Of a DNA stretch of 44,828 nt, positions 3,192-43,096 are shown piece after piece. Made by a program: the position numbers and the translations under genes. The notes beneath the pieces are model-generated. The model made no database searches and was not told the DNA's origin. It saw only the letters and a program-made list of their open reading frames with translations. The DNA comes from a virus. The DNA lies in IMG/VR virus record IMGVR_UViG_3300049433_000057, positions 1 to 44,828 of that record; one strand, 5' to 3'. Position 1 is the first letter of the stretch. Each line of letters begins with the position of its first letter.

Positions 3192-3264
3192 TGGCTAGAA
3201 GTGGAGTTGAACCACTGACCTCCCGCTTTTCAGACGGGCGCTCTACCAACTGAGCTATCCAGCC
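3192..3264 (-). tRNA. tRNA-Phe (GAA anticodon), antisense
   Basis: Read on the minus strand: acceptor GGCTGGA pairs with TCTAGCC with one G-T, D stem GCTC/GAGC, anticodon stem CCCGT/GCGGG around loop CTGAAAA (anticodon GAA), T stem AGTGG/CCACT with loop TTCAACT, discriminator A. No CCA is encoded. It lies convergent to terL, ten bases beyond its stop, which is an odd place for a phage tRNA. tRNA 3' ends often serve as phage attachment cores, but no integrase is seen in the window. Confidence 0.93.
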
Positions 3265-38599: not shown

Positions 38600-38859
38600 T
38601 CTTGGCCGACCCGCCCGCCCATGTCGATGCCGTCTTTGTGGTTGTCCCGCGCCCGCTCGATCTCGTCATCAATCTGCTGCGGCGACGGGTCGAAGTCCAC
38701 CTTCGACGCTGCCAGGTCGTAGGCCAGGCACCAGATCATCCCGTAAAGCTGCTCGATGCACTCCACCACGTCACCAGGTGAATCGAGCATGTCAAGGATC
38801 ATCTTGCCGCCTAGCAGCGACCCGTCTTCGTCGGTGACGTGCCCGTACCCCCCGGCCAT
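38596..38859 (-). CDS. Hypothetical acidic helical protein
   Basis: 87 residues. Helices (KMILDMLDSPGDVVECIEQLYGMIWCLAYDLA; QQIDDEIERARDNH) and overall acidity suggest a small protein-binding factor. ATG 38859 overlaps the RecT stop (TGATG); its stop overlaps the HNH start. No family was recognised; its coupling to RecT hints at a recombination or nuclease-inhibitor accessory. Confidence 0.65.
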   Translation of the reverse strand: MAGGYGHVTDEDGSLLGGKMILDMLDSPGDVVECIEQLYGMIWCLAYDLAASKVDFDPSPQQIDDEIERARDNHKDGIDMGGRVGQE

Positions 38860-39953
38860 CAGGCGGCCCCTCCGGCTTCCTGCTTCGCGGCGGCGATGAT
38901 GTCGATGACCGCTTCGCCGTACTCACGGAGCTTCATCTTGGCCCCCTTGACCGGCTTTCCGTCGTTGTCGTAGTCGTCGCTCAGGTTGTCGCAGTATTCC
39001 TTGACGGTCCACGCGGCGGCGGCTGCTGCTTCGGGTGTCAGCTTGTCGATGGCCAGGTAGTCCGTGATGCCCGTTCCGGCGGGCGTCATCAGGCCAGTGA
39101 CGATCGCGTGCCGGAGCTTCGCAAAGGTGTTGGCCCCTAGCCCCTGCTCCCGGAACGTGGCCGCGATGAGGGCCAGGGACTCTTTTGCGGGCCGCACGTC
39201 GGACGGGGGTGTCTCCGCCTGCCCCTGGTCTTCCGACTCGTCAGCGTCGCTCTCCGGGCCGCGCGTGAGGTGTTCCAGGGTCATGTCCCCCTGTAGCTCT
39301 TCCTCGGCGTAGATGCCGCCCAAGTCGTTGGCGAACGCGCGGCGCAGCGCGAACGCTTCGGCGCATTTTTCGATCATGTGGTCTGGCATCGTCCCCCACT
39401 GGGACATTAGGTAGCGGGAGCCGTCCTTCTTCGTCCCGTAGCCCGCATAACTGGCGAACTTCGCCATGCCGGGGATGCGCAGGCGGGTGCCGTCCGGCAT
39501 CACTTTCACCACGACTACCTTGGCGGCTGACGGCGGCACGGAGTCAAGCCAGACTTCGTGCTTCCCGCCATCCTTGTCGTACCACGTCGTTTCCTCATAC
39601 TCCAACGTGATGCCCCGCCGGTCGGCGGCGCGCTGCGCGTTGACCCGGAACCCGTCGATCCCCGTGACAATGACCCACGCGGAGACCCATTGGCCGTCCT
39701 TCTTTGAGCGCTTTTCGAGTAGGTAGATTTGCTTTGAGAACGGGTCCAGGCCGGTCTTCTGGCAGAAGTGGAAAAAGACCATCAGGTCGCCGTCGGGGGT
39801 CTTCTCCAGTCCTAGGGACTTGAGTGCGCCTAGTTGACGGGGAGTCCACCATGATTGCGTGGGGTGGAGTGCCAGCGCGCCCGTGTCGGCCGCCGTGGTA
39901 GGGGCGGTTGCGGTGTCGCGCTTCTCGACGGCGTCTCGGATGGTCTCTGGCAT
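38859..39953 (-). CDS. recT: RecT/Bet-family ssDNA annealing protein
   Basis: 364 residues from ATG 39953 with AAAGGAAC upstream. The core is WTPRQLGALKSLGLEKTPDGDLMVFFHFCQKTGLDPFSKQIYLL, then VTGIDGFRVNAQRAADR, then EKCAEAFALRRAFANDLGGIYAEEE, all typical of the family that anneals complementary strands during phage recombination. The C-terminal third is a Glu-rich linker and a helical domain. It pairs with the YqaJ-type exonuclease at 41465. Two copies of the structured repeat lie just upstream. Confidence 0.9.
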   Translation of the reverse strand: MPETIRDAVEKRDTATAPTTAADTGALALHPTQSWWTPRQLGALKSLGLEKTPDGDLMVFFHFCQKTGLDPFSKQIYLLEKRSKKDGQWVSAWVIVTGIDGFRVNAQRAADRRGITLEYEETTWYDKDGGKHEVWLDSVPPSAAKVVVVKVMPDGTRLRIPGMAKFASYAGYGTKKDGSRYLMSQWGTMPDHMIEKCAEAFALRRAFANDLGGIYAEEELQGDMTLEHLTRGPESDADESEDQGQAETPPSDVRPAKESLALIAATFREQGLGANTFAKLRHAIVTGLMTPAGTGITDYLAIDKLTPEAAAAAAWTVKEYCDNLSDDYDNDGKPVKGAKMKLREYGEAVIDIIAAAKQEAGGAA

Positions 39954-39974
39954 GGCGGTTCCTTTCATCTGGGG

Positions 39975-40032
39975 TCCCCCGGCGGCGCGCGCCAGCTATG
40001 GGTCTCAGGGGGGTCCTGGCCGCCGCCGGGGA
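39975..40032. repeat. Structured repeat copy A1
   Basis: 10-base-pair stem CCCCGGCGGC (39977-39986) / GCCGCCGGGG (40022-40031). The loop has inner GCCAG/CTGGC pairs and a diverged core TGGGTCTCA. It lies about 22 bases before the RecT start. Confidence 0.6.
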
Positions 40033-40039
40033 AGTTGGC

Positions 40040-40096
40040 TCCCCATCCCGGCGGCGTTCACGTGGGTATCGATTCGATCTTGTCCGGGATGGGGAA
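40040..40096. repeat. Structured repeat copy A2
   Basis: 12-base-pair stem TCCCCATCCCGG (40040-40051) / CCGGGATGGGGA (40084-40095): a different sequence from the other copies, but paired. The core TGGGTATCGA lies in the loop. CTTTT follows on the plus strand. It lies five bases from the stop of the 40101 gene. Confidence 0.65.
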
Positions 40097-40100
40097 GCTT

Positions 40101-40808
40101 TTAGTGCAGGTCGCGCGCTGCGGCCCACAGGTCTTTGAGGATTTTCTTGGACATGGCCCGCATGGCCCTAGCGTGCTGGTGACCAGCGGATAGCGGGGAG
40201 CCGGGGAGTGCGGGGTGACCGGAGGGTCCGCACCGGGGACAGGGGGTGGTGTGCGTCGCGTCAGCGTACAGCTTCCTGGCGTGATCGTACACTAGTCGAT
40301 ACGGGCTGTGCGCCTGCTTGATGCAGGACTCCGCCACCAGGTAGGCGCGCATCTTGGCCTGCGGCGACCAGTTGCCCCGCACGCCGCGCTTCCGTACCTG
40401 CTTGGACGCGTCGCCGTACCCGCAGAACGACCACAGCTCGGACACTAGTCGGGGGCGGTCGTGGAGACCGTTCCAGTAGGGGTCACCGGTCGCGGCGATA
40501 AGACGGGCGGCTTGCTTCTCTCCGACTCCCACCGTGCGGGTGACCCATGCGTGGAGCGGATGGGCGCGCAGTGCCCGCTTGAGGGACAGTTCCGCGTCGT
40601 GTTCCAGCTTGCCTAGCCCGTCAACCAGGGCTTTAAGCCGCGCCACCTCGGGCACGGTTTCGTCCAGACCGAAGCCGCGCTCTTCCCCGTCACTGTCGGT
40701 GGCTGTGCGGGTGAGCTGGCGTAGGCGGTTCTCGTTAGCGATCCGCACCCGCTCTAGGTCATCGAGCACGTCAGCGCTGAATGCCAGCCAGGCGTACGTC
40801 ACTTCCAT
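40101..40808 (-). CDS. IS110-transposase-like HhH protein
   Basis: 235 residues. A helical N-terminus is followed by VGVGEKQAARLIAATGDP and RPRLVSELWSFCGYG, the helix-hairpin-helix pattern of the C-terminal part of IS110/IS116-type transposases, then GVRGNWSPQAKMRAYLVAESC and a CPRCG knuckle. No RuvC-like N-terminal catalytic domain is visible, so it is not a complete transposase. It lies in the recombination operon next to RecT, suggesting a DNA-binding or junction-related role. Two CACTAGTC near-matches to the operator inside it look incidental. Confidence 0.7.
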   Translation of the reverse strand: MEVTYAWLAFSADVLDDLERVRIANENRLRQLTRTATDSDGEERGFGLDETVPEVARLKALVDGLGKLEHDAELSLKRALRAHPLHAWVTRTVGVGEKQAARLIAATGDPYWNGLHDRPRLVSELWSFCGYGDASKQVRKRGVRGNWSPQAKMRAYLVAESCIKQAHSPYRLVYDHARKLYADATHTTPCPRCGPSGHPALPGSPLSAGHQHARAMRAMSKKILKDLWAAARDLH

Positions 40809-40830
40809 CCTTTTGGTTCCTCTCTTTAGT

Positions 40831-40880
40831 GCCAGCGGGCGACCTGTTCGTGGATATCGACCGTGGAATGGCCTGCTGGC
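40831..40880. repeat. Structured repeat copy B0
   Basis: Stem GCCAGCGGGC (40831-40840) / GCCTGCTGGC (40871-40880), one G-T pair, with a 30-base loop holding TGGATATCGA. The stem sequence differs from other copies. Confidence 0.6.
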
Positions 40881-40883
40881 TGT

Positions 40884-40934
40884 CCCCGGCGGCGGCGTCG
40901 CTCTGGGTATTCGGACGGGGATTGGCCGCCGGGG
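40884..40934. repeat. Structured repeat copy B1
   Basis: Stem CCCCGGCGGC (40884-40893) / GCCGCCGGGG (40925-40934) with a 31-base loop holding TGGGTATTCG. It is followed by AAG as in A1 and A2. Confidence 0.65.
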
Positions 40935-40942
40935 AAGTATGG

Positions 40943-40996
40943 CCCCCCGGTGGCGAAGTCAACATGGGTGTCGATCTACAAATGGCCACCGGAGGG
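40943..40996. repeat. Structured repeat copy B2
   Basis: Stem CCGGTGGC (40947-40954) / GCCACCGG (40985-40992), extended by CCC/GGG after one mismatch. The 30-base loop holds TGGGTGTCGA. TCTTTTT follows on the plus strand. It lies seven bases from the stop of the 41004 gene. Confidence 0.65.
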
Positions 40997-41003
40997 AGTC
41001 TTT

Positions 41004-41468
41004 TTAGCTGAGCTTCATCAGCTCATCATCGGGAACGTCGCGGACGCGGGCGGCACCGTTCCTGAGTACTGCTTCCCGATACCCGTCCAGGCTGGTGGCC
41101 CGTACGGCGAACTGAACGGCCTGGTCGCGTAGTCCCTTGGCGACGTATTCGAGATCGTCGGCGGACATGTCCCCAAGTCGGCGCACGCTCCCGTCCGCGA
41201 CGGTGTAACGGACCGTGTCCAGATACTCGCGCCATGTTGCCCGCAGGGTGGCCACCTTGCCGTTCGGCCGTGGTGCCGCCGGGCGGCCCGGAGCGGCACG
41301 CTCACCGCCGATCACGTCGTGGATGTACGGGTACAGCGCCTGCCGTAGCACGCTCTCCACTTCGTTCTCCGGGATGCGACGGCGCAGTTCGGTGACCATA
41401 TCGTCCTTCGATTCGGTGGCGCACTCGCGGACCACGTCACGCGCTGCTGACCGCAGGTTCCAGCTCAT
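41004..41468 (-). CDS. Hypothetical protein of the recombination operon
   Basis: 154 residues from ATG 41468, which overlaps the exonuclease stop (ATGA). It is mostly helical (RSAARDVVRECATESKDDMVTELRRR, EVESVLRQALYPYIHDVIG, TLRATWREYLDTVRYTVADGSVRRLGDM). No catalytic motif was recognised. It is the immediate partner of the YqaJ-like nuclease and might be an accessory to it. Three structured repeat copies follow it. Confidence 0.7.
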   Translation of the reverse strand: MSWNLRSAARDVVRECATESKDDMVTELRRRIPENEVESVLRQALYPYIHDVIGGERAAPGRPAAPRPNGKVATLRATWREYLDTVRYTVADGSVRRLGDMSADDLEYVAKGLRDQAVQFAVRATSLDGYREAVLRNGAARVRDVPDDELMKLS

Positions 41469-42511
41469 TCGTCCCCCACATCGGAAAGGGTCTTCGTCCA
41501 GCGGCCCGGGTGGAGCGCGGACACGGGGGTCTTGCGCTCGCACGCCTTGGCAGCCTTGGGGAACTTCTTACGGAGCATGTCGTGGTCGTACGAGGTACGG
41601 TTGCTGACGCTGCGCGATGCCACTCGGTCATCATTGAGGCGGTACCGCCCGCGCTGGCCGACGGTGATGTACTTCGCGTTACCAGCCAGGTCAAGGATCT
41701 GATTGGTGGCCAGGCCAACGCGGCGTTTGGCCCGCTTCTCCGCTGCCTTGGCGTCGCGGTACCGCCGGGCGAGCTTCACCGGGATGGCCACGGACCCGTC
41801 CGGCTCATCCTTGTAGAGCGTCTTGAGTGCGGCTGTCGTGGCGGGCGTCCAGTCCACGGGCGGCGGGTCCTCGGTGTGCAGCCTGTTTAGGAATTCCTCA
41901 CCTGCCGCGCGCATCGCTTCGATGTCCGCCTTAGCGTCGGCGTCCCGTTCGATGCGGTACGTGACGAGCTTCCACGTGTCCATGAACAGGCACGGGATCA
42001 GGATCTCTGACGCGTCGGCAACGTCCAGTTCCCACAGGCACTGTGCCCGGTACTGGACGGGGATGTCCGGGCTTCCCGGGTCACCCCACACGAGGTTGCC
42101 GTCGTGGTACTTGTTGACGGCGGTCTTGATCTGTACCGGGAACGCTGTCCACGGTGCGGTCATCCCCTGCTGGTAGGCGAGCCGGTCGAAGGTGGCCATC
42201 TGCCACGGTCGTTCCCGGGCCGCGTACAGCCCCCCGGTGATGACGTTCAGTTCCGGGTAGTCCTCACGGAACCGGGCCGCTACATAAGGTTCCAGGTGCG
42301 TCCCCCGGAGGGTTTCGTCGGTGTCGGCGTCGAAGTGCTCCCCCGTGGTCTTGGCGGCGTACACCTTCCACGCTGAGTTCTGCGTAGCCGGTGCGAGTCC
42401 CAGGATGGCCGCGATCTCCGACGCGGTGACCCCTGAACGACGCAATGCTTTCCATCGCTTCGGGTCGGCGTCGATCTCTTCCTGGAGCATCATAAGGTGT
42501 GGTGCGGTCAC
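41465..42511 (-). CDS. YqaJ-family recombinase exonuclease
   Basis: 348 residues from GTG 42511 (GGGGAGC just upstream; ATG 42493 is an alternative). RRSGVTASEIAAILGLAP...AWKVYAAKTTG, then LRGTHLEPYVAARF (catalytic Glu), MATFDRLAY with an Asp, and FPVQIKTAVNKY with the Gln-x-Lys acid/base motif form the lambda-exonuclease-like YqaJ fold. It degrades one strand of double-stranded DNA ends and hands single strands to RecT. The C-terminal part is an extra helical domain. Confidence 0.9.
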   Translation of the reverse strand: MTAPHLMMLQEEIDADPKRWKALRRSGVTASEIAAILGLAPATQNSAWKVYAAKTTGEHFDADTDETLRGTHLEPYVAARFREDYPELNVITGGLYAARERPWQMATFDRLAYQQGMTAPWTAFPVQIKTAVNKYHDGNLVWGDPGSPDIPVQYRAQCLWELDVADASEILIPCLFMDTWKLVTYRIERDADAKADIEAMRAAGEEFLNRLHTEDPPPVDWTPATTAALKTLYKDEPDGSVAIPVKLARRYRDAKAAEKRAKRRVGLATNQILDLAGNAKYITVGQRGRYRLNDDRVASRSVSNRTSYDHDMLRKKFPKAAKACERKTPVSALHPGRWTKTLSDVGDE

Positions 42512-42544
42512 AGCTCCCCGTTTCTTCTCACTGGTAATACAAGG

Positions 42545-42594
42545 CCCCGGCGGCGACGAAGGCCTGGGTATCGTTGGTTGTTTGGCCGCCGGGG
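42545..42594. repeat. Structured repeat copy C
   Basis: Stem CCCCGGCGGC (42545-42554) / GCCGCCGGGG (42585-42594) with a 30-base loop holding TGGGTATCGT. It lies between the stop at 42599 and the exonuclease start at 42511. Confidence 0.65.
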
Positions 42595-42598
42595 GGGT

Positions 42599-43096
42599 CT
42601 ATTTGTTGGCGTACAAAACAATCAGGCCGATAATGGTCACAGCCACAGCCACGATGGACACGATCATGCCGACGTTCAGCCTGCTTGCTGATCCAACATC
42701 ACGGGCCTCAACTACCTGATTACGGACTCCGACCCCGCGTGCTTGCGCATCGCGGAGGTCACGGATGTCTTTCTGGATTGGTTCGAGTGCGGTGGCGATG
42801 GATGCCCGGAACGCATCGGCTGCGGCCCTGACCTGCTCGGCTAGGGCCTGCTGTTGTGCGGCTAGGACTGCGGCGGCTCGGTCGGCGGCACTTACGTCTA
42901 CCGCTCTGATTGCGTCTATCCGGGCTGTTTCTGCGGCACGCAGCTTGTCGGTGTATGCGATGTGTAGTTCTACCTCGCGCCTCAGGTCGGTGTGAAGGTC
43001 ATCTTGCCGTTTCATCGCCGCGTTGACGAGGCGTTGAACGTTAACTGTCGGGTCTGTCCACCACGCCGGTACATGCTGCTTGTCGTCGTCGGGCAC
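42599..43096 (-). CDS. Coiled-coil protein with C-terminal membrane anchor
   Basis: 165 residues if started at GTG 43096, for which GGAGGTGA is an excellent ribosome site; ATG 43108, which is itself part of that site, is the alternative. WWTDPTVNVQRLVNAAMKRQDDLHTDLRREVELHI leads into a long Ala-rich coiled coil. A single C-terminal membrane helix (VGMIVSIVAVAVTIIGLIVLY) ends it. Tail-anchored coiled-coil proteins of this kind are frequent in Streptomyces phages (recollection) with no settled role. It is controlled by the O7 promoter. Confidence 0.75.
   Translation of the reverse strand: MPDDDKQHVPAWWTDPTVNVQRLVNAAMKRQDDLHTDLRREVELHIAYTDKLRAAETARIDAIRAVDVSAADRAAAVLAAQQQALAEQVRAAADAFRASIATALEPIQKDIRDLRDAQARGVGVRNQVVEARDVGSASRLNVGMIVSIVAVAVTIIGLIVLYANK

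Follow-up and report, generated by a model that had tools for sequence, protein, structure and literature searches.

What are the six copies of a structured repeat that lie between positions 39,975 and 42,594 of the viral record IMGVR_UViG_3300049433_000057 (positions 1–44,828; hereafter, the window, meaning this whole stretch of 44,828 nucleotides), in the intergenic gaps of a recombination operon? We conclude that they are very probably the guide units of a stem-loop TIGR array and that the gene at 40101–40808 encodes their partner TasA, the two together forming a stem-loop TIGR-TasA system. The guide-RNA array identity is based on the loop architecture (two 9-nt variable segments with CCA/CG boxes), the linked Tas gene, which is not a transposase, and the hypervariability of the loop segments. 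TIGR-Tas is an RNA-guided DNA-binding family described in 2025 by Faure et al., mainly from metagenomes (PMC12045711). Each unit of a TIGR array comprises a spacer A and a spacer B, each placed between a box C (CCA) and a box D (UG) and bound by a Nop-domain Tas protein (PMC12045711). In another type of array reported there, the edge repeat gives way to variable palindromes, TasA is the partner, and a loop repeat of fixed length and sequence is sometimes present. Because its plan matches this second type, the window array was assigned to the stem-loop class.

Architecture, strand and covariation of the hairpins

Read on the minus strand, each unit follows the plan stem / CCA – 9-nt spacer A – CGAYACCCA – 9-nt spacer B – CG / stem, with stems of 8–14 pairs and a loop of about 30 nt (CA – 9 nt – CGAYACCCA – 9 nt – C). 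The loop is 30 nt long in four of the six copies, 31 nt in B1 and 31–33 nt in A1, consistent with the near-constant loops of the initial annotation, and the conserved core reported there, TGGGTATCGA, is the reverse complement of the central loop repeat. The units, with their scores from the covariance model (CM) described below, are as follows.

Unit C, 42545–42594, minus strand: 51.4 bits (E 1.5e-8), in the gap that separates the upstream gene (stop at 42599) from the RecE-like exonuclease; spacer A AACAACCAA (42582–42574), loop repeat CGATACCCA (42573–42565), spacer B GGCCTTCGT (42564–42556).
Unit B2, 40941–40996 (CM match 40945–40994), minus strand: 41.4 bits; spacer A TTTGTAGAT, loop repeat CGACACCCA, spacer B TGTTGACTT.
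Unit B1, 40883–40935 (CM match 40884–40934), minus strand: 40.9 bits; spacer A ATCCCCGTC, loop repeat CGAATACCCA (10 nt), spacer B GAGCGACGC.
Unit B0, 40831–40880, minus strand: 30.9 bits, adjoining the tas start; spacer A TTCCACGGT, loop repeat CGATATCCA, spacer B CGAACAGGT.
Unit A2, 40039–40096 (CM match 40043–40092), minus strand: 31.6 bits, directly past the tas stop codon; spacer A AGATCGAAT, loop repeat CGATACCCA, spacer B CGTGAACGC.
Unit A1, 39977–40031 (CM match 39980–40028), minus strand: 30.9 bits (E 2.5e-4), the most degenerate copy, upstream of RecT; spacer limits uncertain, spacer A approximately AGGACCCCC, loop repeat (C)TGAGACCCA, spacer B TAGCTGGCG.

The covariance-model search that the initial annotation had proposed was carried out with 70 aligned copies, all from other contigs and none from the window, and the whole window was scanned with filters off. 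The top six matches were exactly the six hairpins that had been described, all on the minus strand, with 30.9–51.4 bits and E-values from 1.5e-8 to 2.5e-4; the seventh match reached 18.5 bits (E 0.09). For copy C, the model gave 51.4 bits on the minus strand vs 18.5 bits on the plus strand, which settles the strand as minus. No false unit appeared in 538 kb of strand scanned from shuffled window sequence.

The claim of a repeated element under selection for structure was likewise borne out. Among the 70 homologous copies, 98% of the stem cells were paired and changes on both sides occurred at 10 of 10 pairs, giving a covariation score of 0.987 vs 0.210 ± 0.017 after shuffling and at most 0.202 with slid partners. 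Because these copies had been gathered partly by their stems, sites chosen by the loop alone served as an extra control: at least seven of eight flanking pairs were present in 65 of 83 such sites, compared to 1.2 in the slid control. This covariation bears on a reading of the repeats as DNA sites, either duplex sites for a protein (stoperators or start-associated repeats) or structured single-stranded sites for replication or recombination. Their intergenic position near the RecT and exonuclease genes, their repetition and a partly asymmetric core would suit such sites. However, a protein that reads duplex DNA would not recognise stems of differing, covarying sequence as a single site, the loop segments are hypervariable, and a single-stranded site would leave both the linkage to tas and the match to tigRNA boxes unexplained; we regard this reading as scarcely credible.

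Identity of the partner gene and comparison with known systems

Tas gene, 40101–40808, minus strand: tas, encoding TasA, a solo Nop-domain protein of 235 aa, assigned from phmmer against PDB, Foldseek and PHROG 4285.

A phmmer search against PDB with the product of this gene returned 9mty_A (TasR) as the best match (E 1e-14), followed by TasH (1.5e-6). The gene also matches PHROG 4285, labelled 'transposase', at 5e-95, and its homologues in phage records carry the same label. An AlphaFold2 model built from five aligned homologues was of moderate quality (predicted local distance difference test 73.9, predicted template modelling score 0.68, residues 112–145 below 50). For this model, the top 11 Foldseek matches were all TasR or TasH (E ~1e-6), with IS621 next (E ~1e-2) and Nop56/58 far lower in the list (E ~0.6). 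A Pfam scan of the 235-aa protein found no nuclease domain, and its alignment to TasR starts at TasR residue 151; the nuclease half is thus absent, and the product is, as judged from sequence comparison and the predicted structure, TasA, a Nop-domain Tas without nuclease. The initial annotation had placed an IS110-like gene in the recombination operon: its location and its relatedness to IS110 stand, and the gene is identified as tas, not a transposase.

Tas proteins and IS110 recombinases share a Nop-type RNA-binding domain and IS621 is the next structural match, which would favour a bridge RNA of an IS110 element, or its remnant. An IS110 transposon with bridge RNA was rejected on the Pfam and alignment results, which show just the Nop/Tnp-like part and no DEDD catalytic domain. 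Element ends were not seen, and the window has many units of one loop each where a bridge RNA would be a single molecule with two. With the alignment of the 235-aa product to TasR beginning at residue 151, and with TasR/TasH scoring far above IS621, a bridge RNA is highly improbable. A CRISPR array was also rejected, since the repeats are covarying stems with no identical direct repeats and Pfam scans of ten neighbouring proteins found no match to a cas gene.

The closest known relative of the TIGR-TasA system proposed here is the published stem-loop TIGR-TasA (PMC12045711, Peromyscus gut locus), where Tas likewise lacks a nuclease, hairpins with palindromic stems of variable sequence follow one another in tandem, and the array adjoins tas. 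In contrast to it, the loop repeat CGAYACCCA of the window is conserved with a fixed length of 9 nt (arrays with a fixed loop repeat are mentioned in PMC12045711 as possible intermediates), the units are spread across three gaps of a recombination operon, the hosts are those of actinophages, and relatives of the window carry units inside the tas reading frame. Dual-repeat TIGR systems with TasR or TasH (PDB 9mty, 21kl, 9w02–9w04 and 9vzx) share the CCA box C, the YG box D, the 9-nt spacers A and B and a homologous Nop-type protein; TasR tigRNAs have box C CCA, box D UG and 9-nt spacers (PMC12045711). In the window, however, the edge repeat is replaced by a covarying stem plus linker, and RuvC/HNH is absent. 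IS110 recombinases with their bridge RNA (IS621, 8wt6/8wt9) have a related RNA-binding domain and split guides in an internal loop, whereas the window has no DEDD domain, no transposon ends and many single-loop units. Box C/D snoRNPs (Nop5/Nop56–58) share a remote fold similarity, with a weak structural match (E ~0.6), and the box C/D guide logic; here, the window was compared by fold and boxes.

Operon context, homologous arrays and spacer turnover

The neighbouring genes that frame the array are the following.

Upstream gene preceding unit C, 43255–42599, minus strand: stop at 42599.
RecE/YqaJ-like exonuclease, 41465–42511, minus strand: Pfam YqaJ 3.4e-17, PHROG 434 2.6e-59.
RecT-like annealing protein, 38859–39968, minus strand: Pfam RecT 2.7e-18.

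The order on the minus strand is gene 43255–42599, unit C, the RecE/YqaJ exonuclease, a small gene, units B2-B1-B0, tas, units A2-A1 and RecT, and the exonuclease and RecT genes are probably co-transcribed with the array. As previously noted, every cluster begins a few bases past the stop codon of the upstream minus-strand gene. This position between genes of one operon would also fit ordinary intercistronic mRNA hairpins, that is, attenuators or elements for RNase processing or stability within the recombination operon, whose mRNA would also be shaped by processing at the linkers. However, phages with different neighbouring genes carry the same unit upstream of tas, downstream of it and even within it, and attenuators need no two 9-nt hypervariable windows between fixed boxes. 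Furthermore, contig L004, where a related exonuclease gene is accompanied by a RecT-like one, has neither tas nor any unit, showing that the units go with tas and not with recombination genes. We consider plain mRNA hairpins very unlikely. The roles listed in the initial annotation (mRNA processing or stability, attenuation, protein binding, replication or recombination site) gave way in the same manner, because loop architecture, Tas linkage and hypervariable segments point to a guide-RNA array.

The expectation of copies in related phages was confirmed. The gene tas and the same hairpins were found in Mycobacterium phages Chanagan, Barriga, Thor, BPBiebs31, Euphoria and Rich, in prophage prophiFSAT01-1, and in Gordonia phages BENtherdunthat, LonelyBoi and Spooky; Rhodococcus phage Peregrin has one unit with a tas homologue. 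Units beside tas also occur in viral contigs, Parafrankia soli and two metagenome-assembled genomes (MAGs). Some 80 phages carry tas, and in A1 phages such as Thor and Chanagan a gap of ~330 nt precedes the gene. The only viral contig with a close relative of tas (L002, 55% identity) carries eight hairpins around and inside the gene. No relative turned up when viral sequences were searched with RecT. When the CM was run on 50-kb stretches from two phage genomes, units were present only around tas. This linkage is not universal, since the 107,724-bp record L003 has six scattered units on both strands (e.g., at 2329 and 7303) and no tas was detected; these units are possibly orphan guides or companions of a diverged Tas.

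A loop-pattern search of viral contigs gave 42 stretches, mostly tandem arrays; 23 matches of an earlier 31-nt-loop pattern (L005–L027), mostly chance matches in coding sequence, were excluded from the unit statistics. A total of 306 units were collected from 50 loci, with a tandem period mostly of 54–63 nt, and 266 of the 306 have a 30-nt loop with exactly 9+9-nt spacers. Among these 266 standard units, box C is CCA in 231 and 245 and box D is CG or TG in 259 and 259 at their two respective positions, with weak co-variation between the D box at the edge and the one in the loop (Fisher p 0.003). Both spacers share a positional bias, with an A/T-rich position 1 and ~75% G/C at position 6, close to where the TasR seed has been placed. 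Two annotated genes cross arrays, Chanagan gp65 (L028 3674–3934) and the 5' part of BENtherdunthat gp59 (L031 3554–4000), and are probably spurious or over-extended calls.

Comparison of near relatives showed that spacers turn over far faster than anything surrounding them. In nine aligned units of the three Gordonia phages, stems are 79–90% and loop repeats 67–75% identical, whereas spacer A (26–32%) and spacer B (26–34%) are at chance level, with tas DNA at 83–85%. In five A1-type mycobacteriophages, tas is 95–98% identical and stems and linkers are nearly invariant, with most spacers different. One unit is identical between Chanagan and Thor, and its Euphoria counterpart has one change in spacer A and a different spacer B. 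Spacers at chance identity within kept stems are what is expected of guides. A spacer reused with different partners (L055 −2919, −2977 and −3096; L076 2517, 2768 and 7085) suggests that spacers A and B are shuffled as modules.

One or two units are in frame inside tas, at one site, in L002, BENtherdunthat, LonelyBoi, Spooky, Parafrankia soli and two MAGs, so that guide and effector are encoded by the same DNA; the window tas has no in-frame unit insertion. The in-frame units are located as follows.

L031, 4400 and 4463: in-frame units within tas.
L032, 4400 and 4463: in-frame units within tas.
L081, 4394 and 4456: in-frame units within tas.
L002, 6355 and 6418: in-frame units within tas.
L084, 3913: in-frame unit within tas.
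L085, 4367 and 4430: in-frame units within tas.
L086, 2980: in-frame unit within tas.

Stems kept while spacers fall to chance identity, and units in frame inside tas, go beyond the published description. We tentatively suggest, as a possibility that falls short of even chances, that guides are replaced within the fixed hairpins of actinophage TIGR units, including the in-frame units inside tas, by an active process, possibly one in which units recombine via the loop repeat they have in common. If true, in-place guide replacement would answer how TIGR arrays renew their spacers without adaptation machinery.

Target searches and proposed function

Targets were modelled as a site of ~18 bp with one strand reading 5'-A-rc(B)-3', where rc denotes the reverse complement. 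No target with ≤3 mismatches was found for the window units in the window's own 44.8 kb, a linear fragment, or for the Chanagan units in the Chanagan genome; the window result disfavours regulation of the own genome through near-perfect sites. BENtherdunthat has five sites at 3 mismatches in its own genome vs 0.6–0.8 after shuffling, and no consistent site emerges from them. Under looser criteria the count was 6 vs 1.35, with mixed orientations; although in excess, these sites were read as noise. Across the collected loci, A+rc(B) with ≤2 mismatches gave 43 true matches vs 32 with shuffled pairing. Exact 18-mers of 11 units were absent from 50,697 phage records, in a search in which a positive control was recovered at E 3 with a 44-nt query and an exact match of the 84-nt queries was estimated, without control, at E ~8, inside the limit of 10. 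A common sequenced phage is thus disfavoured as the target of these 11 units. Viral contig searches gave 1 and 2 matches, the pair in contigs of lower G+C content (0.50 and 0.40) and the single one at 0.60, all three compatible with chance. No target was found for one unit in the Parafrankia genome or for two units in 395 actinobacterial genomes. These negatives speak to the sequence sets searched and not to the activity of the system; mismatched sites, plasmids, unsampled phages or a different TasA geometry are left as candidates.

Several points count against a TIGR-TasA system in the window. Its units are divided among three gaps and do not form a single long array, unit A1 is degenerate, box D is mostly CG here vs UG in TasR, the 107-kb record (L003/G397) combines six units on both strands with no recognised tas, and no natural target emerged from any sequence set searched. 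Transcription of the array and its processing into unit-sized RNAs bound by Tas are predicted; the units lie on the same strand as the operon.

By analogy with published relatives, the TIGR-TasA system of the window may work as follows. A minus-strand exo-tas-recT transcript would carry the six hairpin guide units in its three intergenic gaps, and each hairpin would be excised at the linkers, as in the characterised stem-loop array. A Tas dimer would bind the hairpin by contacting box C (CCA) and box D (CG) at either side of the loop, forming a ribonucleoprotein in which spacers A and B pair with opposite DNA strands over the ~18-bp site. Because TasA has no nuclease, the complex would bind and bend DNA without cutting it. 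In its most likely use, the system would interfere with or regulate, in a programmable way, DNA that the phage itself does not carry; it may be employed against or on DNA other than the phage's own.

PMC12045711 lists as open questions the natural targets, spacer origin and turnover, and what TasA does without a nuclease. The window leads to TIGR-TasA in phage isolates of Mycobacterium smegmatis and Gordonia terrae, of which many have been sequenced and some are near-identical, with a laboratory host available. Natural targets can now be sought in these culturable phages, which bear the same hairpins with other guides, and the laboratory host makes small-RNA sequencing, deletion of tas or the array and target mapping directly feasible. 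PMC12045711 cites a mycobacteriophage review when naming phage hosts of TIGR loci, and some phages listed above may already stand among the published loci. The comparison also corrects annotation, in that genes filed as 'transposase' are tas and probably spurious genes have been called across arrays. Finally, an Rfam scan of the window returned two tRNAs, one sub-threshold match and nothing else; the two tRNA genes lie near its left end, at 1222–1296 on the plus strand and 3192–3264 on the minus strand.
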